The notes under the pieces are model-generated. The model had not been told where the DNA came from. It saw only the letters and a program-made list of their open reading frames with translations, and made no database searches. From Chloroflexota bacterium (lineage in GTDB: Bacteria; Chloroflexota; Anaerolineae; Promineifilales; Promineifilaceae): 64,000 nucleotides of DNA. Each line of letters starts with the position of its first letter. Positions within the stretch are counted from its first letter, which is position 1. Positions 29,032 to 48,709 of the stretch are shown here, piece by piece. The position numbers and the translations under genes are program-made. The stretch is from the NCBI GenBank assembly GCA_022616275.1, contig JAKEFB010000049.1:1-64000 (forward strand), read 5' to 3'.

Positions 29032-29490
29032 TTAACCGGTAAGCGTGTCTAAAAGTTCTTGTTCTGGAATCGGCCGGTTGCCCAGCCAGCGGCGCGAGGT
29101 GTCCCCCCCGCGACTGTCCCAGTAGATTTCCAGGCCGTTGCCGTCGGGGTCGCTGAAGTACATGGCCCAACTGATGCCCACGTGGTCCACTGTAGCCACT
29201 TCCACGCCCATCTGGCGCAGGTGTTGCACGGCCAGGGCAAAGGCGCGTTTGTCGGGTACTTCAAAGGCGACGTGGTAGAGGCCCACACCGTGCGGTGGCG
29301 GATCGGGCGCTTCCGGCCCAACTCGTTGCAAGGCGATTTCGTGGTGCATTTCCGTACCGGTGAGGAAAACGTACTGTTCCTCCCAGCGGTCATTGACCCG
29401 CAGGTTCAGGGCGTGGGTGTAAAACTCCACGGCCCGCTCAAGGTCACGTACTTTCAGGTGGGCATGCCCGATTTTGGCCGGGAAAGTCAC
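29032..29490 (-). CDS. VOC family (glyoxalase/extradiol dioxygenase-like) protein
   Basis: Two beta-alpha-beta-beta-beta modules are visible. Candidate metal ligands are His in IGHAHLKV, His in GLYHVAFEV and Glu in GNGLEIYWD, the pattern of CatE-type VOC proteins. SDPDGNGLEI is the family hallmark. With 152 residues it is a single two-module chain. It may be a dioxygenase, an isomerase or a resistance protein; the substrate is unknown. Its start overlaps the stop of the pentapeptide-repeat gene by 4 nt, so the two are translationally coupled. Confidence 0.85.
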   Translation of the reverse strand: MTFPAKIGHAHLKVRDLERAVEFYTHALNLRVNDRWEEQYVFLTGTEMHHEIALQRVGPEAPDPPPHGVGLYHVAFEVPDKRAFALAVQHLRQMGVEVATVDHVGISWAMYFSDPDGNGLEIYWDSRGGDTSRRWLGNRPIPEQELLDTLTG

Positions 29491-32673: not shown

Positions 32674-32702
32674 TTGACAGAGAGCCGGAGGGCCGGTACA
32701 AT
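32674..32702 (+). promoter_or_regulatory. Consensus promoter of the peptidoglycan-salvage cluster
   Basis: TTGACA (32674-32679), 17 nt, TACAAT (32697-32702). It lies between the IS end and the GntR gene. Confidence 0.8.
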
Positions 32703-32712
32703 GTGGACTAGG

Positions 32713-32726
32713 TTGGTCTATACCAA
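32713..32726. promoter_or_regulatory. DasR/NagR (dre)-like operator
   Basis: TTGGTCTATACCAA is palindromic in its arms and differs at one position from the core TGGTCTAGACCA of the dre site known for the GlcNAc-responsive GntR/HutC regulator DasR. It starts 10 bases after the -10, over the expected transcript start, the place for a repressor. Autoregulation by the adjacent GntR protein is inferred. Confidence 0.65.
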
Positions 32727-32780
32727 TCCTCTTTTCTCCACCTGTTAGTTGTTGCCACGAGCGGCCTGGACCTTACCTCT

Positions 32781-33623
32781 ATGCGATTGAATCCCTCAGA
32801 CATCGCTAAACAGAGCGCGGTGCCACTTTATCTCCAGATTCGCAACCTGCTGTTGCAAGCGGTCAAGCAGGGTGAATTGCAGCCCCACCAGCAAGCGCCC
32901 TCCGAGCGCGAGATGAGCGAGCTGACTGGCGTCAGCCGTATGACAGTGCGCCAGGCATTGCAGACCCTCATCGCCGAAGGCTGGTTGTATACGGTGCCGG
33001 GCAAGGGGACGTTTGTCGCCGACGGTCCTAAAATTGTCCAAAATCTACAGCGCCTTTCCGGTCTGACGCAGCTCCTGCAGTCGCAGGGGTTCATCCCCAG
33101 CTCGCGGGTCATCAAGCTGGCCGTCATCCCGGCCGGCGCGCGCGAGGCGGAGGTCTTTGGCGTCCTGCCGGGCACACCCCTGATCTCTTTTACCCGCCTG
33201 CGGCTGGCGAATGGCGCTCCTGTTGCCCTGGAGTCAACCCATCTGGTCCAGGCCCGCTTTCCCGGCCTGGAGGAATTGGACCTGGGTAGCGGCTCGCTTT
33301 ACGAGATTCTACAAAGGGTCTACGGCGTTTACCCAAGGCGGGCCATCCAGATGATTGAGGCCGATAAAGCCGACGAAATGACGGCCGGCCTGCTGGATAT
33401 CGCGCCCCACGAGCCTGTTTTAGCCATGGAGCGCATCACCTATGCCAAGGAAAACCAGCCGGTGGAATATGTGCTGTCGTGGTATCGCGCCGATCGCTCC
33501 CGGCTAAGGGTCGAGTTGACGGCCGGCGAGGGGCCGCGAACCAGCTCAGTGGCCGACGTGCTGGTGGCGCCCGGCGAAAAAGCGCCGCCAAAATCGGACG
33601 AGCCTGTGATCGTCCCGCTTTAG
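32781..33623 (+). CDS. GntR/HutC-family regulator with UTRA domain
   Basis: An N-terminal GntR winged helix (PLYLQIRNLLLQAVKQGEL ... SEREMSELTGVSRMTVRQAL ... GKGTFVAD) is joined to a UTRA ligand-binding domain (LTQLLQSQGFIPSSRVIKL ... LYEILQRVYGVYPRRAIQMIE). This is the architecture of NagR/DasR, which respond to GlcNAc-6-P or GlcN-6-P. It heads a cluster of peptidoglycan-sugar genes and lies below a dre-like operator. The inducer could therefore be GlcNAc-6-P or MurNAc-6-P, as inference. A ribosome site before the ATG is not obvious. Confidence 0.88.
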   Translation: MRLNPSDIAKQSAVPLYLQIRNLLLQAVKQGELQPHQQAPSEREMSELTGVSRMTVRQALQTLIAEGWLYTVPGKGTFVADGPKIVQNLQRLSGLTQLLQSQGFIPSSRVIKLAVIPAGAREAEVFGVLPGTPLISFTRLRLANGAPVALESTHLVQARFPGLEELDLGSGSLYEILQRVYGVYPRRAIQMIEADKADEMTAGLLDIAPHEPVLAMERITYAKENQPVEYVLSWYRADRSRLRVELTAGEGPRTSSVADVLVAPGEKAPPKSDEPVIVPL

Positions 33624-33628
33624 CTTTT

Positions 33629-34771
33629 ATGCCTGTGTCGCCGGGCATTGATGTTTTGCTGGAGCAACAGATAGAGCTGGTTGCCGGCCGGCCGGCCGGC
33701 CTGGTCAGCAATGCTGCTGCGGTGAATGGCAACATGACCACGACGGTCGAAGCGCTTAGACAGGCGGAAAAGGTACACTTGGCAGCGCTCTTTGGGCCGG
33801 AGCACGGCTTTTACGGCCGGGCCGAAGCCGGCGAGAGGGTTGAATCGGCCCCAGAGTCGCCGCTGGGCCTGCCCATCTACAGCCTGTACGGCGAGAGCCG
33901 CCGGCCGACCTCGGCCATGTTGGCCGGGCTTGAGCTACTTATTTTTGACGTCCAGTGTGTTGGCGTGCGTTTCTACACCTATACGACGACGCTGCTATAC
34001 GTCCTGCAGGCGGCAGCCGAGCACGATATACCGGTGATTGTATGCGACCGGCCGAACCCGATCGACGGAACGATTATCGAAGGGCCGCTGTTGAAGCCGG
34101 AATTTGAAAGCTTCACCGGCTGCGGGCCAATGCCCATTCGTCACGGGTTGACCATGGGCGAGCTGGCCCGGCTGTTTAGCGAGTTCTGGGGCATTTCGGT
34201 TCGGCTGCGGGTAGTGCCCTGCGCCGGCTGGCGGCGCGCGATGTGGTTTGACGAGACGGGTCTGGCGTGGACACCGCCTTCACCGGCGCTGCCCCGGCTA
34301 GAGAATGCACTGCTTTACCCGGGGACGTGCCTCATCGAAGGAACCAATCTGAGTGAGGGCCGGGGCACAGCAACGCCGTTTGAGGTGGTTGGCGCGCCCT
34401 GGGTGGACGGCGAGAGGCTTAGCCAGGCAATGGACGAGGTGGATCTGCCGGGCATCTCTTTTCGCCCGGCCCGCTTTAAGCCGGCGAGCAGCAAATGGGC
34501 CGGCCAATGGTGCGGCGGGGTACAGCTTCAGGTAACGGACCGCCATCGTTTGCGGCCGGTCACCGTGGCGCTGCACCTGATTGACGTTATCCGCCGCCTT
34601 TACCCGGCCGAGTTCGCCTGGCGATTGCCCCATTTTGACCAGTTGATGGGAACGGACCAGCCACGCCAGCAGCTTGAAGCCGGGGCAGCGGCCGGCGAGG
34701 TGATTGCCGGTTGGGCGCCGGACCTGGCGACTTTCGCCGGGCAGCGGCACGGCGTGCTGCTCTATGCCTGA
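33629..34771 (+). CDS. namZ: Exo-beta-N-acetylmuramidase NamZ-like (DUF1343)
   Basis: The sequence LFGPEHGFYG, LPIYSLYGESRRPT, LIFDVQCVGVRFYTYTTTL, CDRPNPIDG and GTNLSEGRGTATPFE are hallmarks of DUF1343. Members from Bacillus subtilis and Tannerella (NamZ) release MurNAc from the non-reducing end of peptidoglycan glycans. The GPEHG acid residues are kept. ATG 33629 starts 5 bases after the GntR stop; the longer frame is inside the GntR gene. Unlike secreted NamZ, no signal peptide is visible at this start, so a cytoplasmic role on imported fragments is inferred. Length 380 is normal for the core domain. Confidence 0.88.
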   Translation: MPVSPGIDVLLEQQIELVAGRPAGLVSNAAAVNGNMTTTVEALRQAEKVHLAALFGPEHGFYGRAEAGERVESAPESPLGLPIYSLYGESRRPTSAMLAGLELLIFDVQCVGVRFYTYTTTLLYVLQAAAEHDIPVIVCDRPNPIDGTIIEGPLLKPEFESFTGCGPMPIRHGLTMGELARLFSEFWGISVRLRVVPCAGWRRAMWFDETGLAWTPPSPALPRLENALLYPGTCLIEGTNLSEGRGTATPFEVVGAPWVDGERLSQAMDEVDLPGISFRPARFKPASSKWAGQWCGGVQLQVTDRHRLRPVTVALHLIDVIRRLYPAEFAWRLPHFDQLMGTDQPRQQLEAGAAAGEVIAGWAPDLATFAGQRHGVLLYA

Positions 34772-34801
34772 CCGGGCCACGTCGTAAGCGTGCAGAAATA
34801 C

Positions 34802-34835
34802 GTTCGGAGTGGCGACTCCAGTCGCCACTGCGAAC
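34802..34835. promoter_or_regulatory. Strong hairpin between namZ and the permease gene
   Basis: AGTGGCGA pairs with TCGCCACT and the outer GTTCG with CGAAC across one mismatch. There is no T-run, so it may be an mRNA-processing or stability element, or a dispersed repeat. It rules against the permease start at 34809. Confidence 0.55.
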
Positions 34836-34880
34836 CAAAACGAGAAGTTGTTTTTGGACATTTACGTAAGGAAGGATGAC

Positions 34881-35966
34881 GTGAGTACAACGGCACTGCC
34901 TCAAGGCACACTCGTACGCGCGCCGGATACGGCGCTTAAATGGCTGCGCCGACTGGCCGCCAACTACCTGGTGCGCCGGCTGCTGAAAGCGCTACTGACG
35001 GCCTTTACCGTCATCACCCTGACCTTCTTTTTAATTCGCCTCCTACCCGGCAACCCGGTGGAGATTTACATCAACCAGTTAATCGTCGAGTATTCGATCC
35101 CCTACCACCAGGCCCAGGACCAGGCGGCCGCACTCTTTTCGATTGACCTGGACCAACCGCTGCTCCTGCAATACTTTGACTATATGGGCAACCTGTTTCA
35201 GGGAGACCTGGGCACCTCGATTCTTTCGCCTGGCACGACGGTGAGCAGCATCATCGCCCGTTTCCTTCCCTGGACCATCTTCAGCGTCGGCACCTCTTTG
35301 ATGATCAGTTTTATGCTCGGGATTTTGCTGGGCCTGCTGATGGCCTACCGGCGCAACGGCCTGATTGACCAGGCGCTGACGGTGCTGGCCTCGATCTCGG
35401 CCTCTGTCCCCAATTACCTGGTCGCCATTTTACTGGTCGTATGGTTGGGCGTGCAGTGGAAGCTGGTGCCCATCGCCGACATGCGCGGGTCGCTCTCACC
35501 GGGCGTGGAACCGGAGCTGTCCTGGGCTTTTGTCAAAGATGTTTTCTTCCACGCCTCGCTGCCAATGCTGACCTATGTTCTGACCACGTTGGGCGGCTGG
35601 ATGCTGACGATGAAGAGCAGCACGATTGGCGTCTTGGGCGAAGATTACGTGATGGTGGCCCGGGCCAAAGGGCTGAAGGACGGCCGCATTGTGACGGGGT
35701 ATGTAGGCCGCAATGCCGCTCTGCCCCTTTTTACCCAATTGACGATTGCCATCGGCTTTGTCGTCGGCGGCTCGCTGCTGATTGAAGGCATCTTTCGCTA
35801 CCAGGGTATCGGCAGCACGCTCCTCCAGAGCGTGCAGCGGCGCGACTACAGCGTGATGCAGGCGGTCTTCCTGATCCTGACCCTATCGGTCATCTTTGCC
35901 AACCTCTTCGCCGACATCCTCTATAGCTGGATCGATCCGCGCATCAAGCTGGGTGATAAGGAGTAG
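34881..35966 (+). CDS. ABC transporter permease, DppB/OppB type
   Basis: The first helix is LTAFTVITLTFFLIRLLPGNP, the conserved N-terminal segment of DppB. The periplasmic region and five further helices follow, with the EAA-type loop YVMVARAKGLKDGRIVTGYVGRNAALP contacting the ATPase. GTG 34881 (MSTTALPQ) with AGGAAGGA upstream was chosen because the ATG at 34809 lies in a hairpin. It forms the channel with the next gene for a dipeptide/oligopeptide-type importer. In this cluster the cargo is more likely muropeptides or amino sugars. Confidence 0.88.
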   Translation: MSTTALPQGTLVRAPDTALKWLRRLAANYLVRRLLKALLTAFTVITLTFFLIRLLPGNPVEIYINQLIVEYSIPYHQAQDQAAALFSIDLDQPLLLQYFDYMGNLFQGDLGTSILSPGTTVSSIIARFLPWTIFSVGTSLMISFMLGILLGLLMAYRRNGLIDQALTVLASISASVPNYLVAILLVVWLGVQWKLVPIADMRGSLSPGVEPELSWAFVKDVFFHASLPMLTYVLTTLGGWMLTMKSSTIGVLGEDYVMVARAKGLKDGRIVTGYVGRNAALPLFTQLTIAIGFVVGGSLLIEGIFRYQGIGSTLLQSVQRRDYSVMQAVFLILTLSVIFANLFADILYSWIDPRIKLGDKE

Positions 35967-35970
35967 CGGC

Positions 35971-36888
35971 ATGACCAGGCAACCTCCGCCAACCTCTTTC
36001 CTGGCCCGCATCCGGTCAGGGATCAGACATTTCGCCGGCTCGCTGCTGATTACGCTGCGCATCCTGACTTATAACAAGGTCGGATTTGCCGGCTTTCTGA
36101 TGGTCCTGACCATCTTGCTCGTCTCGTATATCGGTCCCCGTTACGTGCCGCTGGACACGCAAACGAAAATTGACCAGATTTACCAGCCGCCTTCCCGAGA
36201 ATTCTGGCTGGGCACCGACCACCAGGGCCGCGATATTTTCTCGCAGGTGGTGAACGGCGGCCGGGAGGTCATCCAGGTGGCCCTGATTGCCGCCGTCCTC
36301 TCGACCTCGCTCGCCGTGACCTTCGGCACGTTGGCCGGCTTCGCCGGCGGGGCGGTGGACGGCGGGATCATGACCGTGACCGACATTGTCCTGACCATCC
36401 CCCAATTTCCGCTGCTGGCGGTGCTGGCGGCCCTCATCCAGTTCGACAGTCTGCTCTTTCTAGGGATCTTGCTGGGCCTATTAAGTTGGCCGGCCCTGCT
36501 GCGGGCGGTGCGAGCGCAGGCGCTTTCGCTAAAGGAGCGGGACTTTGTCGAAGCAGCCCGGTCGTTGGGCCTGGGCACCTGGTACATCGTCTTCCGCGAG
36601 ATTGTGCCCAACATGATGGCCTATATCATCATCAGCTTCACCCTGGCCCTGACCGGGGCGATTTACCAGCAGGTGGGGTTAGTCCTCTTAGGGCTGGTGC
36701 CCATCTCCGGCAGCAATTGGGGCGTTATGATCAACCTGGCCTGGATACGCGGGGCCATCTTTTTTGAAGACAGCGTCTGGTACATCATGAGCCCGGTCGT
36801 GGCGATCGCCCTCTTTCAACTGTCGGTAGTGACAATGGGGCGCTCGCTGGAGCTGGTCTTCAACCCGCGCCTGCGCACGGAATTGTGA
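35971..36888 (+). CDS. ABC transporter permease, DppC/OppC type
   Basis: ATG 35971 follows AAGGAG and lies 4 bases after the previous stop; the longer frame is internal to that gene. Typical DppC landmarks are the early helix (GFLMVLTILLVSYIGP), the WLGTDHQGRDIFSQVVNGGR motif and the coupling loop RDFVEAARSLGLGTWYIVFREIVPN. Six helices are expected. It pairs with the DppB-type subunit. Confidence 0.88.
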   Translation: MTRQPPPTSFLARIRSGIRHFAGSLLITLRILTYNKVGFAGFLMVLTILLVSYIGPRYVPLDTQTKIDQIYQPPSREFWLGTDHQGRDIFSQVVNGGREVIQVALIAAVLSTSLAVTFGTLAGFAGGAVDGGIMTVTDIVLTIPQFPLLAVLAALIQFDSLLFLGILLGLLSWPALLRAVRAQALSLKERDFVEAARSLGLGTWYIVFREIVPNMMAYIIISFTLALTGAIYQQVGLVLLGLVPISGSNWGVMINLAWIRGAIFFEDSVWYIMSPVVAIALFQLSVVTMGRSLELVFNPRLRTEL

Positions 36889-36892
36889 GGCG

Positions 36893-38002
36893 ATGAGGCA
36901 AGAACGGAGCGCCCGCCACCAATCAACCGCAAATGGTCTGGCTCCCCTCAGCCTGGCCGATATTCACGTCGCCTACGCCACCAAAGGCGGCATGGTCCAG
37001 GCCGTCCGCGGCGTTACGCTGGACCTGTTAGGCGGCGAGAGCCTGGCCTTAATCGGCGAGAGTGGCTCGGGCAAGACGACGTTGGGGCTGAGTATCGTGC
37101 GCTTGCTGGCCAGTACGGCCCGAATTACCAGGGGTACGATTACCTATCGCCGCGGCGAGCAGCAAATTGATGTGCTCCGTCTAAAGCCGCCGGCGCTGCG
37201 GCGCTTCCGCTGGAGCGAGTGCGCCATTGTCTTCCAATCGGCCTTAAACAGCTTTAACCCCGTGGTGCGTATTTGGGAGCAAGTGTGGGACACGGCGGCG
37301 GCGCACGGCTGGAAAGATCGGCCGGCAGTGCGCCGACGCGCCCTGGAGCTGCTGCGCTTTGTCCAACTCGACCCGGACCGGGTCATCAACGCCTATGCCC
37401 ATGAGCTGAGCGGTGGCATGCGCCAGCGGGTGCTGATTGCCTTGGCGCTGCTATTGAACCCACAGATTTTGATCCTCGACGAGCCGACGACGGCGCTCGA
37501 TATTTTGACCCAACGGTCAATTATCATCATGCTGCGCCGGCTCAAAGAGGAACAGAAGTTCACGATGATGTTTATCTCCCACGATTTGGCCGTCGCCGCC
37601 GAGCTGGCGGACCGGGTGGCGACGATGTATGCCGGCAAGGTGGTCGAGCTTGGTCCGGTTAACGATATCTTCTACCAGCCGCGCCACCCCTATACCCTGG
37701 GCCTGATCCGGGCGGTGCCGACGGTCACCGGCGGCTTTGAAGAGCTGGCTTCGATTCGCGGCAACCCGCCCAACCTGGTCCATTTGCCGAGCGGCTGCAA
37801 ATTCCATCCCCGCTGCCCCTTCGCCACCAGCCGCTGCAAGACCGAGGAGCCGGAACTGGAAGCGGTGGGGCCTGACCATTTTGCCGCCTGCTGGAACTGG
37901 CGTGACGTGGCAGCCGAGGTTGAGGCCCGGCCGGTGCATGCGGCCGCAACCCTGCAGACAGCGGTTGAGATGCCTGCCGATCAGGTGGAGAGGGCGATGT
38001 GA
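36893..38002 (+). CDS. ABC transporter ATP-binding protein, DppD/OppD type
   Basis: Walker A GESGSGKTT, signature LSGGMRQRV and Walker B LILDEPTTALD are intact. The C-terminal oligopeptide-transporter extension has the cysteine pattern CKFHPRCPFATSRCKTEEPE, known in Dpp/Opp ATPases to hold a 4Fe-4S cluster. It starts 4 bases after the permease and overlaps the next ATPase by 4 nt. Confidence 0.9.
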   Translation: MRQERSARHQSTANGLAPLSLADIHVAYATKGGMVQAVRGVTLDLLGGESLALIGESGSGKTTLGLSIVRLLASTARITRGTITYRRGEQQIDVLRLKPPALRRFRWSECAIVFQSALNSFNPVVRIWEQVWDTAAAHGWKDRPAVRRRALELLRFVQLDPDRVINAYAHELSGGMRQRVLIALALLLNPQILILDEPTTALDILTQRSIIIMLRRLKEEQKFTMMFISHDLAVAAELADRVATMYAGKVVELGPVNDIFYQPRHPYTLGLIRAVPTVTGGFEELASIRGNPPNLVHLPSGCKFHPRCPFATSRCKTEEPELEAVGPDHFAACWNWRDVAAEVEARPVHAAATLQTAVEMPADQVERAM

Positions 38003-38991
38003 TCCCGCTCATCGAGCTACGCAACGTGACGCGGGCATTCGGCAAAGATGCCGAAAGGGTCGTCGCCGTTGATGCCATCTCTCTGGCGATTGAGCCGGGT
38101 GAGATTGTCTGCCTGGTGGGCGAGAGCGGCTGCGGCAAGAGCACAACCGGCCGGATCGTCGCCGGGCTCTTGCCGCCGACCTCGGGCCAGATCTTTTACC
38201 AGGGCCAGGATATCGCCCAGATGGACCGGACCAGCCGCCGCAAATACCGCCAGGCGGTCCAGATTGTCCACCAGGACCCGTACGCCTCGCTGAATCCCAC
38301 CCAGACGGTGCGCCAGATCCTCACCGCGCCCTTGCTCCACCATGGCTTTGCCGCCAACCGGAGGGCCGCCAATAAGCGCGCGCTGGAGTTGCTGGAAGTG
38401 GTGGACTTGACGCCGGCCGCGGAAATTCTGGACAAATACCCCCACCAACTGAGCGGGGGCCAGCGGCAGCGCGTGTCGGTCGCCCGGGCCTTGACGGTGC
38501 TGCCTTCGTTTATCGTGGCCGATGAAGCGGTATCCATGGTGGACGTTTCGATCAGGGTCAGCCTGCTCAACATGCTGGCCCGGCTGCGAAACGAGCTGGA
38601 GGTAACTTTCCTTTTTATCACCCACGACCTGGCCCTGGCCAAATATTTCGCCTGGAACGGCCGGATTGTGGTCATGTACCTGGGCCGGCTGATCGAAGAA
38701 GGGCCAACGCCGCGCATCATCGAAAACCCGCGCCACCCGTACACCCAGGCGCTGCTTTCGGCCGTGCCGGAGGCCGACCCGGCCCTGGCCCGGCGCAAGC
38801 AGCCGATCGAGCTGCGCAGCGCCAACATTCCCAGCCTGCTCAATCTACCGCCCGGCTGCACCTTTCATCCCCGTTGCCCCTTTGCCGTCGAGGGCTGGTG
38901 CGATACGGCCGTTCCGCCGCTGGCGACGCTCCCCGACGACGGGGGAAGGGTGGCCTGCCCGGTTATCAACGAGGCGGCGCCGGTACGATGA
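37999..38991 (+). CDS. ABC transporter ATP-binding protein, DppF/OppF type
   Basis: GTG start overlapping the previous stop. Walker A GESGCGKST and signature LSGGQRQRV are standard; Walker B reads FIVADEAVSMVD where DEPVSALD is usual, an odd replacement of the proline, with the catalytic Glu kept. The C-terminal CTFHPRCPFAVEGWCD element is present. With the preceding ATPase it powers the importer. Confidence 0.9.
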   Translation: MIPLIELRNVTRAFGKDAERVVAVDAISLAIEPGEIVCLVGESGCGKSTTGRIVAGLLPPTSGQIFYQGQDIAQMDRTSRRKYRQAVQIVHQDPYASLNPTQTVRQILTAPLLHHGFAANRRAANKRALELLEVVDLTPAAEILDKYPHQLSGGQRQRVSVARALTVLPSFIVADEAVSMVDVSIRVSLLNMLARLRNELEVTFLFITHDLALAKYFAWNGRIVVMYLGRLIEEGPTPRIIENPRHPYTQALLSAVPEADPALARRKQPIELRSANIPSLLNLPPGCTFHPRCPFAVEGWCDTAVPPLATLPDDGGRVACPVINEAAPVR

Positions 38992-39176
38992 TTGACAGCA
39001 GCCTGGGCCGGGCCGCCTTCCGGATCGGCTTTTACGTCACATTTATGGCCGGGCTGTTGAGCCTGGTGACTACGCCGGGCAGCGCCGAACGGGCCATTTC
39101 TATTCTCACCTTAATCATCGGTTTAATCTTCCTCGTCGTTATTACGATTCTGGTTCGCTTCGGCTCGCGACGGTAA
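38988..39176 (+). CDS. Small two-helix membrane protein
   Basis: The ATG overlaps the DppF-type stop by 4 nt (ATGA), which sets the start. The 62-residue product has two hydrophobic helices (IGFYVTFMAGLLSLV and AISILTLIIGLIFLVVITILV) and a basic end (RFGSRR). No family recognised. Translational coupling to the transporter ATPase suggests an accessory subunit of the importer, as inference. Confidence 0.65.
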   Translation: MIDSSLGRAAFRIGFYVTFMAGLLSLVTTPGSAERAISILTLIIGLIFLVVITILVRFGSRR

Positions 39177-39258
39177 AGGGTTTGCGTCGCCGCCGGAAAG
39201 GAGGTGGTCGTTGGCAGCGTAATGTAAGCAAATGTCACTATCAGCAGGCTTACAGAGA

Positions 39259-39273
39259 TGGTTGGCAAAACCA
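39259..39273. promoter_or_regulatory. Weak inverted repeat upstream of the binding-protein gene
   Basis: TGGTTGGCAAAACCA has arms TGGTT/AACCA. It shares only the outer arms with the dre-like site at 32713. A second regulatory input is possible but unproven. Confidence 0.25.
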
Positions 39274-39340
39274 GCAGTTTAAGCCCGTAGCTCGGTTTTT
39301 TACCCGAGGAGATTCAACAAATAATAAGTAGGAGAAAAAG

Positions 39341-41245: not shown

Positions 41246-41275
41246 CGGCCGCACCCTTTACCAATCTTAGTGGCG

Positions 41276-41328
41276 AGACGGCGGCGAGGAGGAGTGGAAG
41301 GCGAAGCCATCTTCTCTCGCCGCCGTCT
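41276..41328. promoter_or_regulatory. Long-range hairpin after the binding-protein gene
   Basis: GACGGCGGCGAG (41277-41288) pairs perfectly with CTCGCCGCCGTC (41316-41327). A partial terminator or mRNA stabiliser here would raise binding-protein output relative to downstream enzymes, a usual pattern in ABC operons. Confidence 0.5.
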
Positions 41329-41360
41329 TAGCCTGACAGGCCAGTAAGCGTGAAGCGTGA

Positions 41361-43244
41361 ATGATCAGGCAAGGTGAAGGCGACACCAAAGTGTCGCACA
41401 CGTTTGTGATCGGCGTTGACGGCGGCGGCAGCAAGGCGGCGGCTGTGGTACTCGACGGCCGCGGCCAGGTGCGGGGGCGGGGCCTGAGCGGCTCGGCCAA
41501 CTACCATAACGTCGGGCTGGCCCAGGCCCAGGCCAACCTGGCGGCCGCCATGCGCCAAGCAACGACCGCCGCCGGGGTTGACTTCGGCCGAGTAGCGGCC
41601 GTGACGTGGGCCCTGTCCGGGGTAGACCGGCCGGCCGAACGCCGCCTCTTTGCCGAGCTGGCGGCCGAAATGTTGCCCGGAATTCCCGTCCGGGTGGAAA
41701 ATGATGCCCTGGCGGCCCTGGTGGGTGGCCTGGGCGGCCGCTGCGGCGTGGCGCTTATTGCCGGCACGGGCATGATCGCCTACGGCCAAAACGAACGAGG
41801 CGACGCGGCGCGCGCCGGCGGCTGGGGCCATCTCGTAGACCCCGGTAGCGGCTATGCTCTGGCCCGTGAAGCCGTGCGGGCGGTCGGCGAGGCCGAAGAT
41901 GGGCAAGGGCTGCCGACAGAGCTGGCTCAAAGCGTGCTCAGGCAATTGGGGTTGGCCCAGGTGACCGACCTGGTCGGCTGGCTGTACGACCCGAGCCGGC
42001 AGGTGGCCGACCTGGCGGCTTTAGCTCCATTGGTGCTGGCGGCGGCCGAGGCCGGCGACCTGGCGGCGCTTGACATTGTTGTCCGTGGAGCCGATAGCCT
42101 GGCCGAGGCGGTGGCGGCCGTCGCCCGGCGGCTGGCGCTGTGGGACAGCCCCTTCGCCGTCGTCATGGCCGGCGGAGTGCTAGAGCAAAGCGCGTTCTAC
42201 CGCCAGGTGGTCAGCCAGGCGATTCGTACCGCCTGCCCCTTCGCCCGGCCAGCGCTGCCGCCGGCCGGCGCTGCCTTCGGGGCGGCCTTGCTGGCGCTGG
42301 AAACCCTGGGCCTCCCTATCCATGCCGGTCGCCCTAAGCCGGCCGGGGACGGCGCTGTCCGGGCCTCGGAGGAAGCCAACGTGCTGACCGGCGACCTCGA
42401 CAGGCGGCCTCCGCCGGCGCTGGTGGGACTGCTGCACTTGCTGGACCGGCAGGCCGTTGCCGCCGTTCGGCCGGCCCTGCCGGCAATCGCCGGCGCGGTC
42501 GAGGCGATTGCCGGCCGTATGGCCCAGGGAGGCCGGCTGATCTACGCCGGGGCGGGCACGTCGGGCCGGTTGGGTGTGCTCGACGCCTCGGAGTGCCCGC
42601 CGACTTTTGGCATAGACCGGGGGCGCATTGTGGCCGTGATGGCCGGCGGCGCGGCCGCTTTCGGCGACTCGGTCGAAGGGGCCGAAGATGACCCGCAGGC
42701 CGGCGTGGCGGCGCTGGCGGCGCTGGCGGTGGGGCCACTTGACAGTGTGGTCGGCATTGCCGCCAGCGGCCAGACACCCTACGTGCAGGGCGCACTGGCC
42801 GAGGCCCGCCGGCGTGGCGCTCTGGCGATCGCCCTGGTCTGTAATTTACCAACCCCTTTCGCCGGCAGCGCCGAGCACGTCATTGCGCCGTTGGTGGGGC
42901 CGGAAGCGCTGACCGGCTCGACCCGGCTCAAAGCAGGCACTGCCCAGAAGCTGGTGCTGAATATGCTCAGCACGGCGGTGATGGTCCGCCTGGGCAAGAG
43001 CTACGGTAACCTGATGGTTGACCTGCGGGCGGAAAACGCGAAATTAAGAGAGCGGGCGCGTCGCATCGTGGCCCAGGCGTGCCGGATCGGCGATGAAGAG
43101 GCGGGCCGTGCCCTGCTGGCGAGCGACGGCGACGTCAAGGTGGCCGTTGTGGCCACCCTGGCCGGCTGTAGCCCGGCTGATGCCCGGCAACGGCTGGCCC
43201 AGGCCGGCGGCCGCGTGCGCCAGGCGCTGGCGCAGCTAACTTAA
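41361..43244 (+). CDS. Fused BadF/NagK-MurK-type amino-sugar kinase and MurQ etherase
   Basis: Residues about 14-320 form a BadF/BcrA-type ASKHA kinase (VIGVDGGGSKAAAVVLDGRG, GTGMIAYGQN, GGWGHLVDPGSGYAL, AGGVLEQSAF), the group containing GlcNAc kinases and clostridial MurK. Residues about 345-627 are a SIS-domain MurQ (GAGTSGRLGVLDASECPPTFG, GIAASGQTPYVQGALAEARR, NMLSTAVMVRLGKSYGNLMVDL). MurQ splits the lactyl ether of MurNAc-6-P to GlcNAc-6-P and D-lactate. The fusion would make MurNAc-6-P and consume it on one chain. ATG 41361 has no strong ribosome site; GTG 41391 is an alternative. Confidence 0.9.
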   Translation: MIRQGEGDTKVSHTFVIGVDGGGSKAAAVVLDGRGQVRGRGLSGSANYHNVGLAQAQANLAAAMRQATTAAGVDFGRVAAVTWALSGVDRPAERRLFAELAAEMLPGIPVRVENDALAALVGGLGGRCGVALIAGTGMIAYGQNERGDAARAGGWGHLVDPGSGYALAREAVRAVGEAEDGQGLPTELAQSVLRQLGLAQVTDLVGWLYDPSRQVADLAALAPLVLAAAEAGDLAALDIVVRGADSLAEAVAAVARRLALWDSPFAVVMAGGVLEQSAFYRQVVSQAIRTACPFARPALPPAGAAFGAALLALETLGLPIHAGRPKPAGDGAVRASEEANVLTGDLDRRPPPALVGLLHLLDRQAVAAVRPALPAIAGAVEAIAGRMAQGGRLIYAGAGTSGRLGVLDASECPPTFGIDRGRIVAVMAGGAAAFGDSVEGAEDDPQAGVAALAALAVGPLDSVVGIAASGQTPYVQGALAEARRRGALAIALVCNLPTPFAGSAEHVIAPLVGPEALTGSTRLKAGTAQKLVLNMLSTAVMVRLGKSYGNLMVDLRAENAKLRERARRIVAQACRIGDEEAGRALLASDGDVKVAVVATLAGCSPADARQRLAQAGGRVRQALAQLT

Positions 43245-43254
43245 AGGAGGCCTA

Positions 43255-45129
43255 TTGTCTGAAGCACCTTTCCTTTTACCCATGCCCCGCCAAGTCCAGC
43301 TACAGCCGGGCATGTTTGCTGCCAGCAACGGCAAGCTAATCGCCCTGGAAGGCGGCGATGCGGCGGCGCTCTATTTTACGGCCGGCCGGCTGCAAGCGGC
43401 GCTGCGCGATTTTGCCGGCGCGAGCTGGGAGGTTGTCGCCGGCACGGGCGCGCCGCAGGAACAGCTCGGCGCCGTGCTGAACGTCGTGCCTGGGGCGATG
43501 AAACAGCCTGACGGCTATGAATTAACGATCACGCCGCGGGCCATTCACGCCGTCGCCGGCAGTCCGGCCGGCGCTTTTTACGCCGTCTTGACCCTGATCC
43601 AGCTTTTGCGGCAGTACGGCGACCAATTGCCGGCGCTGCGCATCACCGACTGGCCCGACTTTCCCAATCGGGGGCTGATGCTCGACATTAGCCGGGACAA
43701 GGTCCCCACGATGGCAACGCTGTTCCACCTGGTTGACCTGCTGGCTTCCTGGAAGATAAACCAGCTCCAACTGTACACCGAGCATACCTTTGCCTACCGC
43801 CGCCACCCGGTGGTCTGGGCCACTGCCTCGCCCATGACCGGGGCCGAAATTCTGGCCCTCGACGCCTACTGCCGCGACCGTTTTATCGAGCTGGTGCCTA
43901 ACCAGAACTGCTTTGGTCACATGAGCCGTTGGCTCGACCACCAGGAATACACCCACCTGGCCGAAGCGCCGGAAGGCGCGCAGACGCCCTGGGGCTTCTA
44001 TCGCCAGGGGCCGAACAGCCTGAACCCCACCGATCCGCGCAGCCTCGAGCTGGTGCGCACCCTCTTTGACGAGCTGCTGCCCCATTTCAGCAGCTGCCAG
44101 CTTAACGTCGGTTGTGACGAGACCTATGACGTCGGCCAGGGACGCAGCAAAGAGGCCGTCGAACGGCTTGGCGGCGGCCGGGTCTACCTGGACTTTTTGG
44201 GCAAGATTTATCTCGAGGTCAAGGCACGCGGCCGGACGATGCAATTTTGGGGCGACATTATCGTCCACCACCCGGACCTGGTCGCCGAGCTACCGCGCGA
44301 CATGATTGCCCTGGAGTGGGGCTATGAGGCCGACCATCCTTTCGACGAACACGGGGCCATCTTTGCCCAATCAGGCGTGCCCTTTTACGTCTGTCCGGGC
44401 ACCTCTTCCTGGAACAGCATCGCCGGCCGGACGGAAAACGCCCTGGCCAACTTGCGCAGCGCGGCCGAGAACGGCCTGCGCCGCGGAGCCATCGGCTATC
44501 TCAACACCGATTGGGGCGACAACGGCCATTGGCAGCCGCTGCCGGTCAGCTACCTGGGCTTTGCTTATGGCGCAGCCGTCGCCTGGGCCACCGAGGCCAA
44601 TCGCGACCTCGATATGGCCCGGGCGCTCGATCGCTTTGCCTTTCAAGACGAGGCCGGCCGGATGGGCCGCCTGGCTTACGACCTGGGCAACGCCTACCGC
44701 GAAATGGGGATCATGCCCCACAACAGCAGCGCCCTCTTCTGGCTCTTACGCTACTTGCCGGAGGAACTGCGGGAGGTAGAAGGCCGGATGTTTAAGGGCG
44801 AGCGGCTGCGCGCCGAGCCGCTGCGCCGGACGAGCGCCTACCTGGACGAGGTCATGGCGGGGCTGCCGCAGAGCGACATGAAGAGACAGGACGCCGAACT
44901 GGTGCGCCAGGAGTTCACCCTCGTCGCCGATATGCTGGGCCATGCCTGCCGGCGCGGCTTATGGATGGTGGGCGATGGCGAGGCCGCGGCCGGCAGGCAA
45001 TTGTCCCAGGAGGCGGACGAGCTGATCGGCCGCTACCGGGCAACGTGGCTGGCGCGCAACCGCCCCGGCGGCCTGGGCGACAGCGTGGCCCGCCTGGAGA
45101 AGATGCGGCAGTCCTACGTTTCTGAATAA
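43255..45129 (+). CDS. GH20 beta-N-acetylhexosaminidase
   Basis: An N-terminal GH20b-like domain (FAASNGKLIALEGG ... VNVVPGAMKQPDGYEL, then AFYAVLTLIQLLRQYG) precedes the catalytic barrel beginning DWPDFPNRGLMLDISRDKVP. The catalytic Asp-Glu pair is in LNVGCDETYD. The product, 624 residues, has no signal peptide, so it should act in the cytoplasm, probably removing GlcNAc from imported fragments. Start is TTG 43255, supported by a perfect AAAGGAGG five to twelve bases before it. It follows the kinase-etherase gene by 10 bases. Confidence 0.9.
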   Translation: MSEAPFLLPMPRQVQLQPGMFAASNGKLIALEGGDAAALYFTAGRLQAALRDFAGASWEVVAGTGAPQEQLGAVLNVVPGAMKQPDGYELTITPRAIHAVAGSPAGAFYAVLTLIQLLRQYGDQLPALRITDWPDFPNRGLMLDISRDKVPTMATLFHLVDLLASWKINQLQLYTEHTFAYRRHPVVWATASPMTGAEILALDAYCRDRFIELVPNQNCFGHMSRWLDHQEYTHLAEAPEGAQTPWGFYRQGPNSLNPTDPRSLELVRTLFDELLPHFSSCQLNVGCDETYDVGQGRSKEAVERLGGGRVYLDFLGKIYLEVKARGRTMQFWGDIIVHHPDLVAELPRDMIALEWGYEADHPFDEHGAIFAQSGVPFYVCPGTSSWNSIAGRTENALANLRSAAENGLRRGAIGYLNTDWGDNGHWQPLPVSYLGFAYGAAVAWATEANRDLDMARALDRFAFQDEAGRMGRLAYDLGNAYREMGIMPHNSSALFWLLRYLPEELREVEGRMFKGERLRAEPLRRTSAYLDEVMAGLPQSDMKRQDAELVRQEFTLVADMLGHACRRGLWMVGDGEAAAGRQLSQEADELIGRYRATWLARNRPGGLGDSVARLEKMRQSYVSE

Positions 45130-45145
45130 TCATTGAGGAGGGCCA

Positions 45146-46429
45146 ATGCCCAGACCGATTACAGCAGTGATGGCCGGCGCCGGCGTGCGCGGAACATTCG
45201 CTTACAGCCCCTATGCCCTGGAGCGTCCTGACGAGCTGCGCTTTGTGGCTGTGGCCGAGCCGAACGGGGTCCGGCGCGAACGCTTCGCCCAAGCGCACGC
45301 CATTCCCCCCGAACGGCGCTTCTCGTCCTGGGAGGAGCTTGTGGCCGCCGGCCGGCTGGCCGATGTCCTGTTTAATATGACCCAGGACCGGACCCATTAT
45401 CCGTCTACCCTGGCGGCACTGGAGGCCGGTTATGACGTGCTGTTGGAGAAGCCGATGACCACGCGCCTGGCGGACACCGTCCACCTGGTGCAGACGGCCG
45501 AGCGCAGCGGTCGCCTGCTCCAGGTATGCCACGTCCTGCGCTACACGCCCTTTTTTGCCACTCTGCACGATATTCTTCGTTCCGGCCGCCTGGGCGACAT
45601 CGTTCTCGTCGAGCACCGGGAGAACGTGATCTACTGGCACATGGCCCACAGCTTTGTCCGCGGCAGTTGGGGCAATACGGCCGCCTCCAGCCCGATGATC
45701 CTGGCCAAGTGTTGCCACGACCTCGACATTCTCTACTGGAACCTCGGCCGGCCGGTCGAGCGGCTGCAATCCTTTGGCTCGCTGATCCACTTCCGGCCCG
45801 AAAACGCGCCGCCAGGGGCGACCGCCCGCTGCACCGACGGCTGCCCGGCCGGCCCGGCATGCCCATTTGACGCCCGCCGCCATTACCTGGACCCGGACAA
45901 CAACGGCTTTTCGGTAGTGGCCCTGAGCGACGATACCAGTATGGCCGGGCGGCGACAGGCCCTGGAAACCGGGCCGTACGGCCGCTGCGTGTACCGCTGC
46001 GACAACGATGCGGTGGACCACCAAACGGTCAACATGGAATTTGCGGGCGGCGCCTCGGTGGTCCTCTTTATGCATGGCCACTCGCACGAAGAGGGCCGCA
46101 CCATGCGCTATGACGGAACACGAGCCACGCTGCGAGCCAGGTTTGTCTCCGGCGACAGCCGCATCGAAATTAATGACCACCTGACCAACCGGCGGGAGGA
46201 AATTGCTATTCCCCCGGCGACGAGCGGCCACGGCGGCGGCGATCGGGCCATCGTCGAGAGCTTTGTCCGGGCGGCGCGCGGCGAGACGGAAGCCCTGACC
46301 AGCGCGCGCGAGTCGTTGGAGAGCCACCTGCTGGCCTTTGCCGCCGAGGAGTCACGGCTGCAGGGCGTAGTGGTGGATATGAATGACTTTCGCCGGCAGG
46401 CCGAGGCTGGCCTCATTGAGCAAGGATAA
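45146..46429 (+). CDS. Gfo/Idh/MocA family NAD(P)-dependent oxidoreductase
   Basis: An N-terminal dinucleotide-binding fold (ITAVMAGAGVRGTFAY) is followed by the family motif DVLLEKPMTT with the EKP lysine and a C-terminal beta-sheet domain (HRENVIYWHMAHSFVRGSW). An insert with cysteines (RCTDGCPAGPACPFDAR) may bind metal, as in a Gfo/Idh subgroup. The family includes sugar dehydrogenases and NAD-dependent glycosidases (GH109). Known MurNAc pathways have no step for such an enzyme, so its job here is open. It lies 16 bases after the GH20 gene and overlaps the next gene. Confidence 0.85.
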   Translation: MPRPITAVMAGAGVRGTFAYSPYALERPDELRFVAVAEPNGVRRERFAQAHAIPPERRFSSWEELVAAGRLADVLFNMTQDRTHYPSTLAALEAGYDVLLEKPMTTRLADTVHLVQTAERSGRLLQVCHVLRYTPFFATLHDILRSGRLGDIVLVEHRENVIYWHMAHSFVRGSWGNTAASSPMILAKCCHDLDILYWNLGRPVERLQSFGSLIHFRPENAPPGATARCTDGCPAGPACPFDARRHYLDPDNNGFSVVALSDDTSMAGRRQALETGPYGRCVYRCDNDAVDHQTVNMEFAGGASVVLFMHGHSHEEGRTMRYDGTRATLRARFVSGDSRIEINDHLTNRREEIAIPPATSGHGGGDRAIVESFVRAARGETEALTSARESLESHLLAFAAEESRLQGVVVDMNDFRRQAEAGLIEQG

Positions 46430-47570
46430 GCACGCGAACAGTAGAATCGCCCTGGCCCTCGATCCCTTCTTGAATGAGGCGGCCGGCCGAATCTTTCCCG
46501 CCGCCGTCGTGCATATCTCTCAGGATGGCCAAATCCTCTACCACCGCGCCGTCGGCCGCCTGGACCCGGCCGTGGAGCAACCGGCAACCGCCGGCCCCAA
46601 ACCTTCAGACCTTTCTCTCTTCGACCTGGCCTCGCTGACCAAGTTGTTCACGACTACCGCTTTTCTTCGCCTGGTGGCCGAGGGAGAGGTCACACTGAAT
46701 AGCCCCGTAGGCGGCATCTTGCCCGACTTTGGCGGGCTGCGGCCGATACAGCCCTATGAAGACCCGTTGCAGCCGGGCCACTTCATCAACGCCAGCCAGG
46801 AGACGGGTCTGGTTGATGCCAGCCAGGTCACCTTTCGCCATCTGCTGGCCCATAACAGCGGTTTGCCTGCCTGGCGGCCGCTATTCCGCCAGCCACCCGA
46901 GGCCATCCCCGCCGTCGTGCTGGAGACGTTCTTTGCCTACCGGCCGGGCAGCCGGGTCGTCTATAGTGACCTGGGCTTTATCCTGCTTGGCTGGGCGATT
47001 GAGCGAATGAGCCGCCGGCGGCTGGACGAGGCGGTTGCCGGGTTAGTCCTGGCCCCGCTTGATTGGCCGGCGATCCGCTTTGGGCCGGCGGCGCCGGCCG
47101 AGAGTGCGCCGACCGAGCTATGCGCCTGGCGCGAGCGGCGGATGCAGGGCGAGGTCCACGACGAAAATAGCTGGGCTATGGGCGGCATCGCCGGCCATGC
47201 CGGCCTGTTCGGCTCGGCCGCGGGGCTGGCGGCGCTCGGCCAGGCATGGCTGGATAGCCTTTACGGCGGGCCAGTTACCCTGTTACCCCAGCCGCTGGCC
47301 CAGGAGGCGGTCCGCTGCCAGGCGAAAGAGGGACAGGTACGGCGTGGCCTCGGCTGGCTGCTCTGGTCGCCCGAGGCGGAGACGGTCGGCCATCCGCTGG
47401 GGCCTGATTCGTTCGGCCATACTGGCTTTACCGGCACTTCACTGTTCGTCGATCCAAAACGCCGGCTCGTTATCGCCTGCCTGACCAATTATCTCTATTA
47501 CGGCCGCCGGCCGCAGGCTATCCAGGCCTTTCGCCGGGCGCTCCACGAGCTGGTCGTTAAAGCGATATGA
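46416..47570 (+). CDS. Serine hydrolase of the beta-lactamase/S12 family (AmiE-like)
   Basis: The S12 nucleophile motif is SLTK in FDLASLTKLFTTTAFLRL, the second motif is YSDLGF, and HTGFTG stands for the third, so the fold should be active. B. subtilis AmiE, an N-acetylmuramoyl-L-alanine amidase encoded with namZ and murQ, belongs to this family as I recall it; an amidase removing peptides from MurNAc is the best guess, a beta-lactamase or esterase being alternatives. No signal peptide is present. TTG 46416 (MSKDKHANS) is preferred; ATG 46383 extends further into the preceding gene. It overlaps anmK by 4 nt. Confidence 0.78.
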   Translation: MSKDKHANSRIALALDPFLNEAAGRIFPAAVVHISQDGQILYHRAVGRLDPAVEQPATAGPKPSDLSLFDLASLTKLFTTTAFLRLVAEGEVTLNSPVGGILPDFGGLRPIQPYEDPLQPGHFINASQETGLVDASQVTFRHLLAHNSGLPAWRPLFRQPPEAIPAVVLETFFAYRPGSRVVYSDLGFILLGWAIERMSRRRLDEAVAGLVLAPLDWPAIRFGPAAPAESAPTELCAWRERRMQGEVHDENSWAMGGIAGHAGLFGSAAGLAALGQAWLDSLYGGPVTLLPQPLAQEAVRCQAKEGQVRRGLGWLLWSPEAETVGHPLGPDSFGHTGFTGTSLFVDPKRRLVIACLTNYLYYGRRPQAIQAFRRALHELVVKAI

Positions 47571-48709
47571 TTGTTGCCGGCCTCATGTCAGGCACGTCGG
47601 CCGACGGGACCGATGTGGCCATTGTCGAAATTGACGGCGCGCCGCCGGCACTGCACTGGCGACTGTTTCATTATGGGACGGTGCCCCACCCGCCTGGCTT
47701 ACGGGCGGCCATTCTGGCAGCTACCCAAGCGGAAACGGGCAGTGTGGCGGCGCTCTCCACCCTGAACGTGGCCCTGGGCGAGCAGCTCGCACAGGCGGCC
47801 CTGGCCGAAATGGCCCGGGCTGGCCTTACTCCAGCCCAGGTGCAGCTTGTTGGCTCTCATGGCCAGACGGTCTGGCACGCGCCCGAAGGCACGCCGCCTT
47901 CGACGCTCCAGGTGGGCGAGGCAACCGTCATAGCCGAGCGGCTGGGCGTGCCGGTGGTGAGCAACTTTCGCCTGCGGGACATGGCCGCCGGCGGCCAGGG
48001 CGCGCCGCTGGTGGCCTACGTGGATACCCTCTTACTGACCCACCCCAGCGAAGTGCGGGCGGCGCAAAACATTGGCGGCATTGCCAACGTCACCTTCCTG
48101 CCGCCGCTCAACCGGCCAGAGCTGGCCCTACTCGCCTTTGACACCGGGCCGGGCAATGTCCTGCTTGACCATGCCGCCGCCCGCATCACCCAGGGCCGTC
48201 TGCAATATGACCGGCATGGGGCGCTGGCCGATCAGGGCCGAGTTGACGGTGTTCTCCTTGGCTGGCTATTGGAGCAGCCGTACTTCGCCCGCCGCCCGCC
48301 GAAGTCCACCGGCCGGGAACTCTTTACCAATGCCTTTGCCGAAGCGGTATGGCAGCGCGCCGAGGCGATGGGCCTGGCGCTGCTCGACACCATCGCCACC
48401 CTGACGGCTTTCACCGCCCAAACTATCAGCCGCGCTTACCGCGATTTTTTGCCATGCCTGCCGGAGGTAGTGATCATCAGCGGCGGCGGCGCGCGCAACC
48501 TGGCGCTGCTGCGTATGCTGGCCGATGCGGTCCATCCGGCGACGGTACTGCCGTCTGACGCGATGGGTATCCCCGGCCAGGCCAAGGAGGCGCTGGCCTT
48601 TGCCATTCTGGCTTATGAGAGCTGGCATGGCCGGCCGGGCAACTTGCCGGCGGCAACCGGTGCCAGCCGCCCGGTCGTCCTTGGCCAGATTACGGCCGAC
48701 CGGTTATAG
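47567..48709 (+). CDS. anmK: Anhydro-N-acetylmuramic acid kinase
   Basis: Diagnostic AnmK motifs are present: GLMSGTSADGTDVAI at the N-terminus, GSHGQTVWH, NIGGIANVTFLP, FDTGPGNVLLDH and the ATP-site SGGGARNLAL. Length 380 is typical. AnmK hydrolyses and phosphorylates 1,6-anhydroMurNAc, a product of lytic transglycosylases, to MurNAc-6-P, the MurQ substrate. It ends the cluster, coupled to the AmiE-like gene by a 4-nt overlap. Confidence 0.95.
   Translation: MIVAGLMSGTSADGTDVAIVEIDGAPPALHWRLFHYGTVPHPPGLRAAILAATQAETGSVAALSTLNVALGEQLAQAALAEMARAGLTPAQVQLVGSHGQTVWHAPEGTPPSTLQVGEATVIAERLGVPVVSNFRLRDMAAGGQGAPLVAYVDTLLLTHPSEVRAAQNIGGIANVTFLPPLNRPELALLAFDTGPGNVLLDHAAARITQGRLQYDRHGALADQGRVDGVLLGWLLEQPYFARRPPKSTGRELFTNAFAEAVWQRAEAMGLALLDTIATLTAFTAQTISRAYRDFLPCLPEVVIISGGGARNLALLRMLADAVHPATVLPSDAMGIPGQAKEALAFAILAYESWHGRPGNLPAATGASRPVVLGQITADRL

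Follow-up and report, generated by a model that had tools for sequence, protein, structure and literature searches.

A Chloroflexota gene cluster that probably serves the uptake and intracellular breakdown of murein sugars

Layout of the cluster and its enzymes

The 64-kb stretch of Chloroflexota DNA analysed here (the window) is part of an 8.53-Mb draft genome and carries, at 32781–48709 on the plus strand, a run of genes encoding, in this order, a GntR/UTRA regulator, the exo-muramidase NamZ, permeases B and C and ATPases D and F of an ATP-binding cassette (ABC) importer, its substrate-binding lipoprotein, a sugar kinase fused to the etherase MurQ, a GH20 hexosaminidase, a Gfo/Idh-type protein, an S12 serine hydrolase and the kinase AnmK (Table 1). 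We propose that this run is probably an inducible operon for the uptake of murein sugars and their breakdown inside the cell. The twelve genes, their order and their single strand had already been given in a preliminary description of the window and are borne out by Pfam and the open reading frame (ORF) coordinates; a thirteenth gene, for a protein of 62 amino acids, was left out of that list, and the start given there for the cluster, 32674, is the first base of a promoter-like site with 11 of 12 matches. The many 4-nucleotide (nt) overlaps mentioned in it are an overstatement, since two of the 11 junctions among the listed genes overlap by 4 nt (ATPase D/F and S12/AnmK) and one by 47 nt. The cluster, described as one for salvage of N-acetylmuramic acid (MurNAc), was also called complete-looking, but NagA and NagB lie outside it in the same genome (contigs C207 and C183; C174).

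Table 1. Features of the cluster, with positions in the window and the matches on which each assignment rests
Feature	Position	Strand	Evidence
Sigma-70-like promoter, TTGACA-17-TACAAT	32674..32702	+	11/12 matches
Candidate operator, a palindrome that includes TGGTCTATACCA, directly after promoter	32711..32728	none	exact match 32714-32725
GntR/UTRA repressor	32781..33623	+	Pfam UTRA 142 bits, GntR 67 bits
NamZ, exo-beta-N-acetylmuramidase	33629..34771	+	Pfam NamZ_N 257 bits, NamZ_C 187 bits, profiles nearly full; PDB 4k05, 4jja
ABC permease B	34809..35966	+	BPD_transp_1; under cut-offs of all 15 matched NCBIfam models
ABC permease C	35971..36888	+	BPD_transp_1; ATG 35971; under cut-offs of all 17 matched NCBIfam models
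ABC ATPase D	36893..38002	+	ABC_tran and oligo_HPY
ABC ATPase F	37999..38991	+	ABC_tran and oligo_HPY
62-amino-acid protein, two hydrophobic stretches (by eye)	38988..39176	+	ATG overlaps ATPase F stop by 4 nt
Substrate-binding lipoprotein, oligosaccharide type	39341..41245	+	SBP_bac_5; lipoprotein-like N-terminus LSLVAC (by eye)
Fusion of a BadF-type sugar kinase (presumably MurNAc/GlcNAc) with MurQ etherase	41361..43244	+	BcrAD_BadFG 127.6 bits; TIGR00274 equivalog 329.7 bits (cut-off 302)
GH20 beta-N-acetylhexosaminidase, divergent	43255..45129	+	Glyco_hydro_20b 67 bits; Glyco_hydro_20 61 bits, 260/348 profile positions
Gfo/Idh-type protein with conserved cysteines	45146..46429	+	Pfam; 19-member alignment
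S12 serine hydrolase, AmiE/PBP4B-like, start uncertain	46383..47570	+	Beta-lactamase Pfam 165 bits; SLTK in sequence
AnmK, anhydro-MurNAc kinase	47567..48709	+	Pfam 364 bits; NCBIfam equivalog 472.1 bits (cut-off 387)

NamZ most likely starts at the ATG at 33629 and not at the start of the longest ORF at 33479. The MurQ half of the fusion passes its equivalog model, aligns with PDB 4s12 over residues 335–623 and is also matched by the glucokinase regulatory protein (GKRP), a MurQ relative. The kinase half matches a hexokinase (PDB 2e2n, 123.9 bits) and PDB 8zo3, which is named a kinase of MurNAc and N-acetylglucosamine (GlcNAc) (115.3 bits, residues 5–302 of 320). Its putative catalytic Asp lies in END, aligned with VND of 8zo3, and is preceded by Asn as in GlcNAc kinases and 8zo3, unlike in MurK of Tannerella, where this residue is Thr (PMC10465942). 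The NagK_SO3507 model of NCBIfam gives 104 bits on this half, against a cut-off of 370. In GH20 the Asp-Glu pair is present within VGCDET.

The orthologues of the Gfo/Idh-type protein are 52–72% identical and six cysteines (189, 190, 229, 233, 239 and 281) are invariant in all 19 rows of the alignment, with 285 nearly so; arranged as CxxxCxxxxxC, as CC before the conserved His and in GRC, they perhaps form a metal site. An ordinary dehydrogenase was considered and rejected, as the Asp before the conserved His, which we take to be the usual motif of Gfo/Idh dehydrogenases, is replaced (KCCHDLD). Its predicted fold most resembles those of 1,5-anhydrofructose reductase and NAD-dependent glycosidases, with identities of no more than 19% among the best 50 matches, and our guess is that the protein might act on an anhydro or glycosidic bond with the help of a redox step.

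Where would these enzymes act? None of the six (NamZ, GH20, Gfo/Idh, S12, kinase-MurQ and AnmK) has a hydrophobic N-terminus, as judged by a hydropathy heuristic and not by a signal-peptide predictor. Their hydropathy peaks at 0.88–1.40, whereas the lipoprotein reaches 2.94 and two NagZ controls reach 2.35 and 2.29; for this measure kinase-MurQ was taken from 41391 and S12 from 46431, a position without a start codon. Among the orthologues of NamZ, GH20 and S12, nine from loci L121, L129, L132 and L152 give 0.76–1.64. By this heuristic, the earlier observation that no hydrolase of the cluster has a signal peptide holds, and the breakdown inside the cell that was suggested with it fits.

The fusion of kinase and MurQ recurs as a single open frame in six loci besides the window, as counted in the loci fetched from draft assemblies. 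Other single-frame fusions are AnmK-MurQ (three loci), AnmK-S12 (two), NamZ-MurQ, AnmK-kinase and GH3-MurQ (one each); these were seen in L003, L008, L009, L027, L063, L064, L182 and L185. Since enzymes of one route are repeatedly fused together, there is good evidence that the enzymes of the cluster serve one pathway. The kinase-MurQ fusion unites a MurQ domain with a sugar kinase in a single polypeptide and, speculatively, may bear on the origin of the pairing of GKRP with glucokinase.

The importer, its binding protein and the regulator

The family make-up of the importer by Pfam (SBP_bac_5, two permeases and two ATPases with oligo_HPY) is that of Dpp/Opp systems, and the earlier term Dpp-type is thus right as a family name, but the binding protein groups with oligosaccharide binders. 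In its predicted fold, the first 13 of the best 50 entries are sugar binders. In the profile search the first 14 solved sequences score 110–155 bits, 12 of them being sugar binders by title (the titles of 4jsd and 8i5j are silent on the ligand), the next match is NikA at 81 bits, and the YejA chain, last among the best 60, has 44 bits compared with 155 for the mannoside binder 4pft. The protein is therefore placed by fold and profile nearer to the cluster C-IV oligosaccharide type than to peptide or nickel binders, so that sugar-containing fragments appear more likely as cargo than peptides alone. Asp365 of VhCBP, a chito-oligosaccharide binder of Vibrio, makes the largest contribution to binding there (PMC8449061) and aligns with Asp457 of the window protein, which is invariant in 58 sequences.

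No Dpp, Opp or Nik equivalog cut-off of NCBIfam is reached by permease B (best score 205.9, cut-off 350), permease C (196.4, 350), ATPase D (284.1, 575, among 25 of 189 families listed) or the binding protein (46.3, 650), nor is that of the YejB subfamily (124.8, 445). A scan of named genomes gave 203 relatives of the importer, and the comparison covers 80 of these loci, some of them on short contigs; 69 of the 80 carry ATPase F at more than 250 bits. The 62-amino-acid protein is matched in 46 of them, directly after ATPase F in 42 (tblastn, E ≤ 1e-3), and by these matches it is a conserved companion of the importer lineage.

Upstream of the regulator gene, the promoter match is weak on its own, since a scan of the region gave 2 sites against 2.9 expected. 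It is followed by a candidate operator palindrome, TTGGTCTATACCAA, which presumably resembles the operators of NagR and DasR, with amino-sugar phosphates as inducers. The identical 12 operator bases are found near the GntR gene of L152; the site lies inside the longest GntR ORF by 26 nt in L152 and by 20 nt in L125, for which reason a later GntR start is assumed in both. The operator with at most one mismatch is present in 13 of 32 GntR rows, which include three regions twice and have no chance control, with five of the 13 from one genus, and the exact pattern is in 3 of 201 loci. Within the window TGGTCTANACCA is found exactly once, and with one mismatch eight times against 0.55 expected; six of these matches are outside the cluster (25536, 25731, 26124, 30359, 53686 and 57016) and are unexplained. 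A regulon in the organism's own genome was dropped from consideration and none is claimed, because there were 5 exact matches compared with 8 for a reversed control. The cluster is adjoined by a gene for a long pentapeptide-repeat protein on the minus strand (29487–30857).

Related loci in Chloroflexota and in two archaeal genomes

Across a sample of 301 Chloroflexota genomes, AnmK exceeds its cut-off in 53 and NamZ in 22. The clade of the binding protein, for which up to four candidates per genome were scored and the best matches listed, is discrete: 19 genomes from 10 families score at least 277 bits, a single one scores 203 and the others 108 or below. AnmK is present in 18 of these 19 genomes and in 35 of the 282 others (Fisher p = 2.8e-14), and NamZ in nine of the 19 and 13 of the 282 (p = 6.1e-7), kinship being ignored in both values. 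Locus L152 has GntR, NamZ, kinase-MurQ, importer, binding protein, GH20, Gfo/Idh, S12, AnmK and NagA in one run, while L129, a contig of 9.4 kb, has the binding protein (75–79% identical), kinase-MurQ, GH20, Gfo/Idh and S12. With the fusions and the co-occurrence of AnmK, these gene sets lend support to the preliminary description, which saw here MurNAc salvage linked to an ABC importer.

Amino-sugar markers other than Gfo/Idh occur in 30 of the 80 related importer loci and markers of any kind in 36; Gfo/Idh orthologues are in 16, 10 of which have another marker. On a tree of 58 binding proteins, with three long branches flagged, the label 'mur' (any marker but Gfo/Idh, 28 rows) needs 11 changes compared with a shuffled mean of 19.7; the label is clustered, yet it has been gained or lost many times.

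Importers of another family are also seen: in L032, L033, L034, L038 and L051, CUT1 (SBP_bac_1) importers replace the Dpp-type beside NamZ, AnmK or MurQ, so a sugar importer of a different family can occupy the same place, which speaks for the proposal. Among the 22 NamZ genomes, Dpp-type genes are near NamZ in five (G000, G123, G026, G035 and G190, the last with the binding protein only, both it and NamZ being fragments) and CUT1 genes in six (G283, G037, G150, G288, G209 and G053, the last with the permease only), and no importer was found in 11 by BLAST with few importer queries, several contigs being short. The importers were identified by Pfam on L032, L033, L038 and L051 and elsewhere by BLAST to these, so other types could escape. 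Beyond the NamZ set, Dpp-type genes stand beside MurQ or AnmK in G174, G243 and a second contig of G016, and CUT1 genes in G124 and G191.

Related sets are also present in two archaeal metagenome-assembled genomes (MAGs). Loci L164 (G301:C10, an archaeon) and L171 (G302:C140, Thermofilaceae) carry, in an unbroken series, the genes for the importer, NamZ, MurQ, diaminopimelate decarboxylase and a kinase-like protein, and the L164 contig (L190) adds AnmK, an S12 hydrolase and a second kinase-like gene; GH20, Gfo/Idh and GntR were not seen in these stretches. The kinase-like gene of L171 gives a weak match (54 bits), and the L171 series ends at the contig edge. The genomes, of about 1.4 and 1.3 Mb, contain ribosomal protein L31e, and bacterial L21p was not found in them; in 14 control genomes L31e matched in the four archaea and L21p in the ten bacteria. 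These markers vouch for the genome and not for the contig, because L31e is on other contigs. The L164 contig itself encodes a phosphatase resembling ARMT1 (191 bits by Pfam, short of the cut-offs of two NCBIfam models, including an archaeal one) and a histidyl-tRNA synthetase that, among solved structures, matches cytoplasmic (eukaryotic) chains best, and the cluster half of this contig correlates in tetranucleotides with four contigs of its own genome at r 0.57–0.68 (0.40 with the window and 0.50 with L129). For L171 this comparison had little sequence, as three of the four pieces read N. The archaeal cluster may be misbinned or reflect gene transfer at the level of assembly; we put forward tentatively, as somewhat short of an even chance, that this lineage of importers forms, together with a cytoplasmic NamZ and MurQ, a portable 'eat murein' module which archaea have acquired as well.

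The diaminopimelate decarboxylases exceed the cut-off of 297.9 bits in L164 (391), in L171 (330) and beside the L037 cluster (379), and their position beside these clusters suggests that the peptide may be imported too. A gene for an M81 (MlrC-like) peptidase stands near the importer in nine of the 80 loci (L127, L132, L146, L149, L157, L163, L166, L167 and L170; identified by Pfam in L132 only among the nine). MlrC cleaves peptides containing D-amino acids, so by analogy a role of M81 on the stem peptide is conceivable. A search of the organism's own genome gave no M81 match, but the controls were silent too, so that absence is not shown.

The proposed pathway, its alternatives and its meaning

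The proposal is directly supported by the gene identities and their order, by the fusions and co-occurrence in relatives and by the predicted fold of the binding protein. From these we infer the substrate, the individual reactions, the inducer and such roles as the Gfo/Idh-type and 62-amino-acid proteins may have. The lipoprotein and the importer with its two permeases and two ATPases would take up short oligosaccharides of GlcNAc and MurNAc, both normal and 1,6-anhydro; these are probably disaccharides, which may or may not carry a stem peptide. Inside the cell the S12 hydrolase would strip the peptide, and the sugar at the non-reducing end would be removed by GH20 if it is GlcNAc and by NamZ if it is MurNAc. 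The kinase half would phosphorylate MurNAc, and perhaps GlcNAc too, while AnmK would open and phosphorylate anhydro-MurNAc, both leading to MurNAc 6-phosphate, from which the MurQ half would form GlcNAc 6-phosphate and lactate; NagA and NagB, encoded elsewhere in the genome, would complete the route. GntR/UTRA would repress at the palindrome by the promoter and be released by an amino-sugar phosphate such as GlcNAc 6-phosphate. The fragments could come from other cells, as in the filament living on bacterial debris that the preliminary description pictured, or from the organism's own wall, both sources being covered by the proposal.

How does such a system compare with those already described? 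We take ybbC of Bacillus subtilis to be NamZ. The MurNAc catabolic cluster murQ-murR-murP-amiE-nagZ-ybbC of that species likewise has MurQ, NamZ and a candidate MurNAc-L-alanine amidase together and leads from MurNAc 6-phosphate to GlcNAc 6-phosphate, but its NagZ and AmiE work outside the cell and MurNAc enters via the phosphotransferase system (PTS) protein MurP (PMC5061867). The window has an ABC importer and no PTS gene in the cluster, GH20 in place of NagZ, the BadF kinase-MurQ fusion, AnmK, GntR/UTRA in place of MurR and no signal peptides seen; neither MurP nor MurR is among the twelve cluster genes, to which this search was confined. Muropeptide import by an ABC system is established for YejBEF-YepA of Agrobacterium (PMC9790009), which was missing from the importer background of the preliminary description, where MurP was named for Firmicutes and AmpG for Gram-negatives. 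From that system the window differs in its binding-protein lineage, in its two separate ATPase genes and in encoding the importer with the catabolic enzymes. MurK of T. forsythia (PMC10465942), 8zo3 and MurQ and AnmK of E. coli (PMC5061867) belong to the same kinase and etherase families, and 8zo3 shares the catalytic Asp in an N-D pair, whereas in the window kinase and etherase form one polypeptide. The differences from known systems thus lie in the importer type, the regulator, the fusion of kinase and MurQ, and a NamZ and GH20 that seem to lack a signal peptide. Among titles and abstract openings, no paper was found that describes a NamZ/MurQ cluster linked to an ABC importer in either Chloroflexota or Thermofilaceae, the kinase-MurQ fusion not being part of this search.

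Several observations weigh against the proposal. The expectation that the importer always adjoins MurNAc genes failed: NamZ, MurQ or AnmK is present in 17 of the 80 related loci and 44 carry no marker, so that the comparative search called for earlier yields a link that is frequent but not fixed. The main evidence against a fixed link comes from the nearest binding proteins after L129 (L096, L095, L097 and L099, 69–73% identical), which adjoin other genes, with no marker in the roughly 5 to 10 kb read downstream, and from the 16 Caldilineaceae loci (L107–L119, L133, L134 and L174), where a PhyH dioxygenase gene, and in 14 a CUT1 permease too, takes the place of the MurNAc genes; these copies may have another cargo or represent a split cluster. 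GH20 is divergent, its closest PDB entry being a lacto-N-biosidase at E 3e-15, and S12 is below the PBP4B equivalog of NCBIfam (110.8 bits, cut-off 385). In the fold list of the binding protein NikZ scores 31.2, level with the lowest of the leading sugar binders; AppA, which binds peptides, reaches 30.4, and the sugar binders 2o7i (29.4) and the form 1zty (28.6) stand low in the list. Finally, given gaps of 349 nt between ATPase F and the binding protein and 115 nt between the latter and the kinase, the genes may or may not form a single transcript.

Recycling of the organism's own wall rather than use of foreign debris, in which growth would release turnover fragments into the same route as in B. 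subtilis and A. tumefaciens, is compatible with the proposal and possible, if somewhat doubtful. Its described counterparts serve recycling (B. subtilis, PMC5061867; YejBEF-YepA, PMC9790009), but here the route ends at GlcNAc 6-phosphate, AmgK/MurU and Mpl are not in the cluster (the search covering the cluster only), a related set is found in two MAGs of archaea, organisms expected to have no murein to recycle, and the patchy distribution of AnmK (53/301) and NamZ (22/301) would fit nutrition rather better than housekeeping.

A further alternative, which we consider unlikely, is that the cargo is chitin or other oligosaccharides of GlcNAc and that the MurNAc genes beside the importer are in part independent of it. 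The best fold matches of the binding protein bind (GlcNAc)n, GH20 and NagA are enzymes of chitin routes as well, and five genomes of family f58 have the importer next to a NagZ-type GH3, while the sequence read around it holds no MurNAc gene (secretion was examined in two). MurQ, NamZ and AnmK, however, have no known use in chitin breakdown yet share the gene run, AnmK accompanies the binding-protein clade almost throughout, and the chitobiose contacts Asn409 and Phe411 of VhCBP are, as we read the alignment, replaced by Asp501 and Gly503, a change that counts against our proposal too; the window protein also differs from VhCBP (PMC8449061) in having MurNAc enzymes as neighbours. Quite improbable, in our opinion, is an ordinary importer of dipeptides or oligopeptides, or one of the MppA kind that takes only the peptide part of murein, as short murein peptides enter via OppBCDF-MppA (PMC13204101). 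The family names SBP_bac_5 and oligo_HPY, the S12 hydrolase and the diaminopimelate decarboxylase beside L037, L164 and L171 would agree with it, but AppA, MppA (28.0) and DppA (27.9) rank below the leading sugar binders in fold and lower in profile too, the four importer proteins scored stay under the cut-offs of the Opp/Dpp models listed, and a cytoplasmic NamZ and GH20 would have no substrate.

If the binding protein takes GlcNAc-MurNAc, as the proposed murein-sugar operon implies, this would be a further import principle beside MurP, AmpG and YejBEF-YepA, in which an oligosaccharide-type ABC importer is followed by wholly intracellular digestion by an exo-muramidase and a hexosaminidase. 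The archaea of L164 and L171, should the module indeed be theirs, would feed on bacterial walls, sugar and diaminopimelate alike, because such archaea should have no murein of their own. Chloroflexota are common in sludge and sediments, and would gain a testable role in the turnover of bacterial walls.

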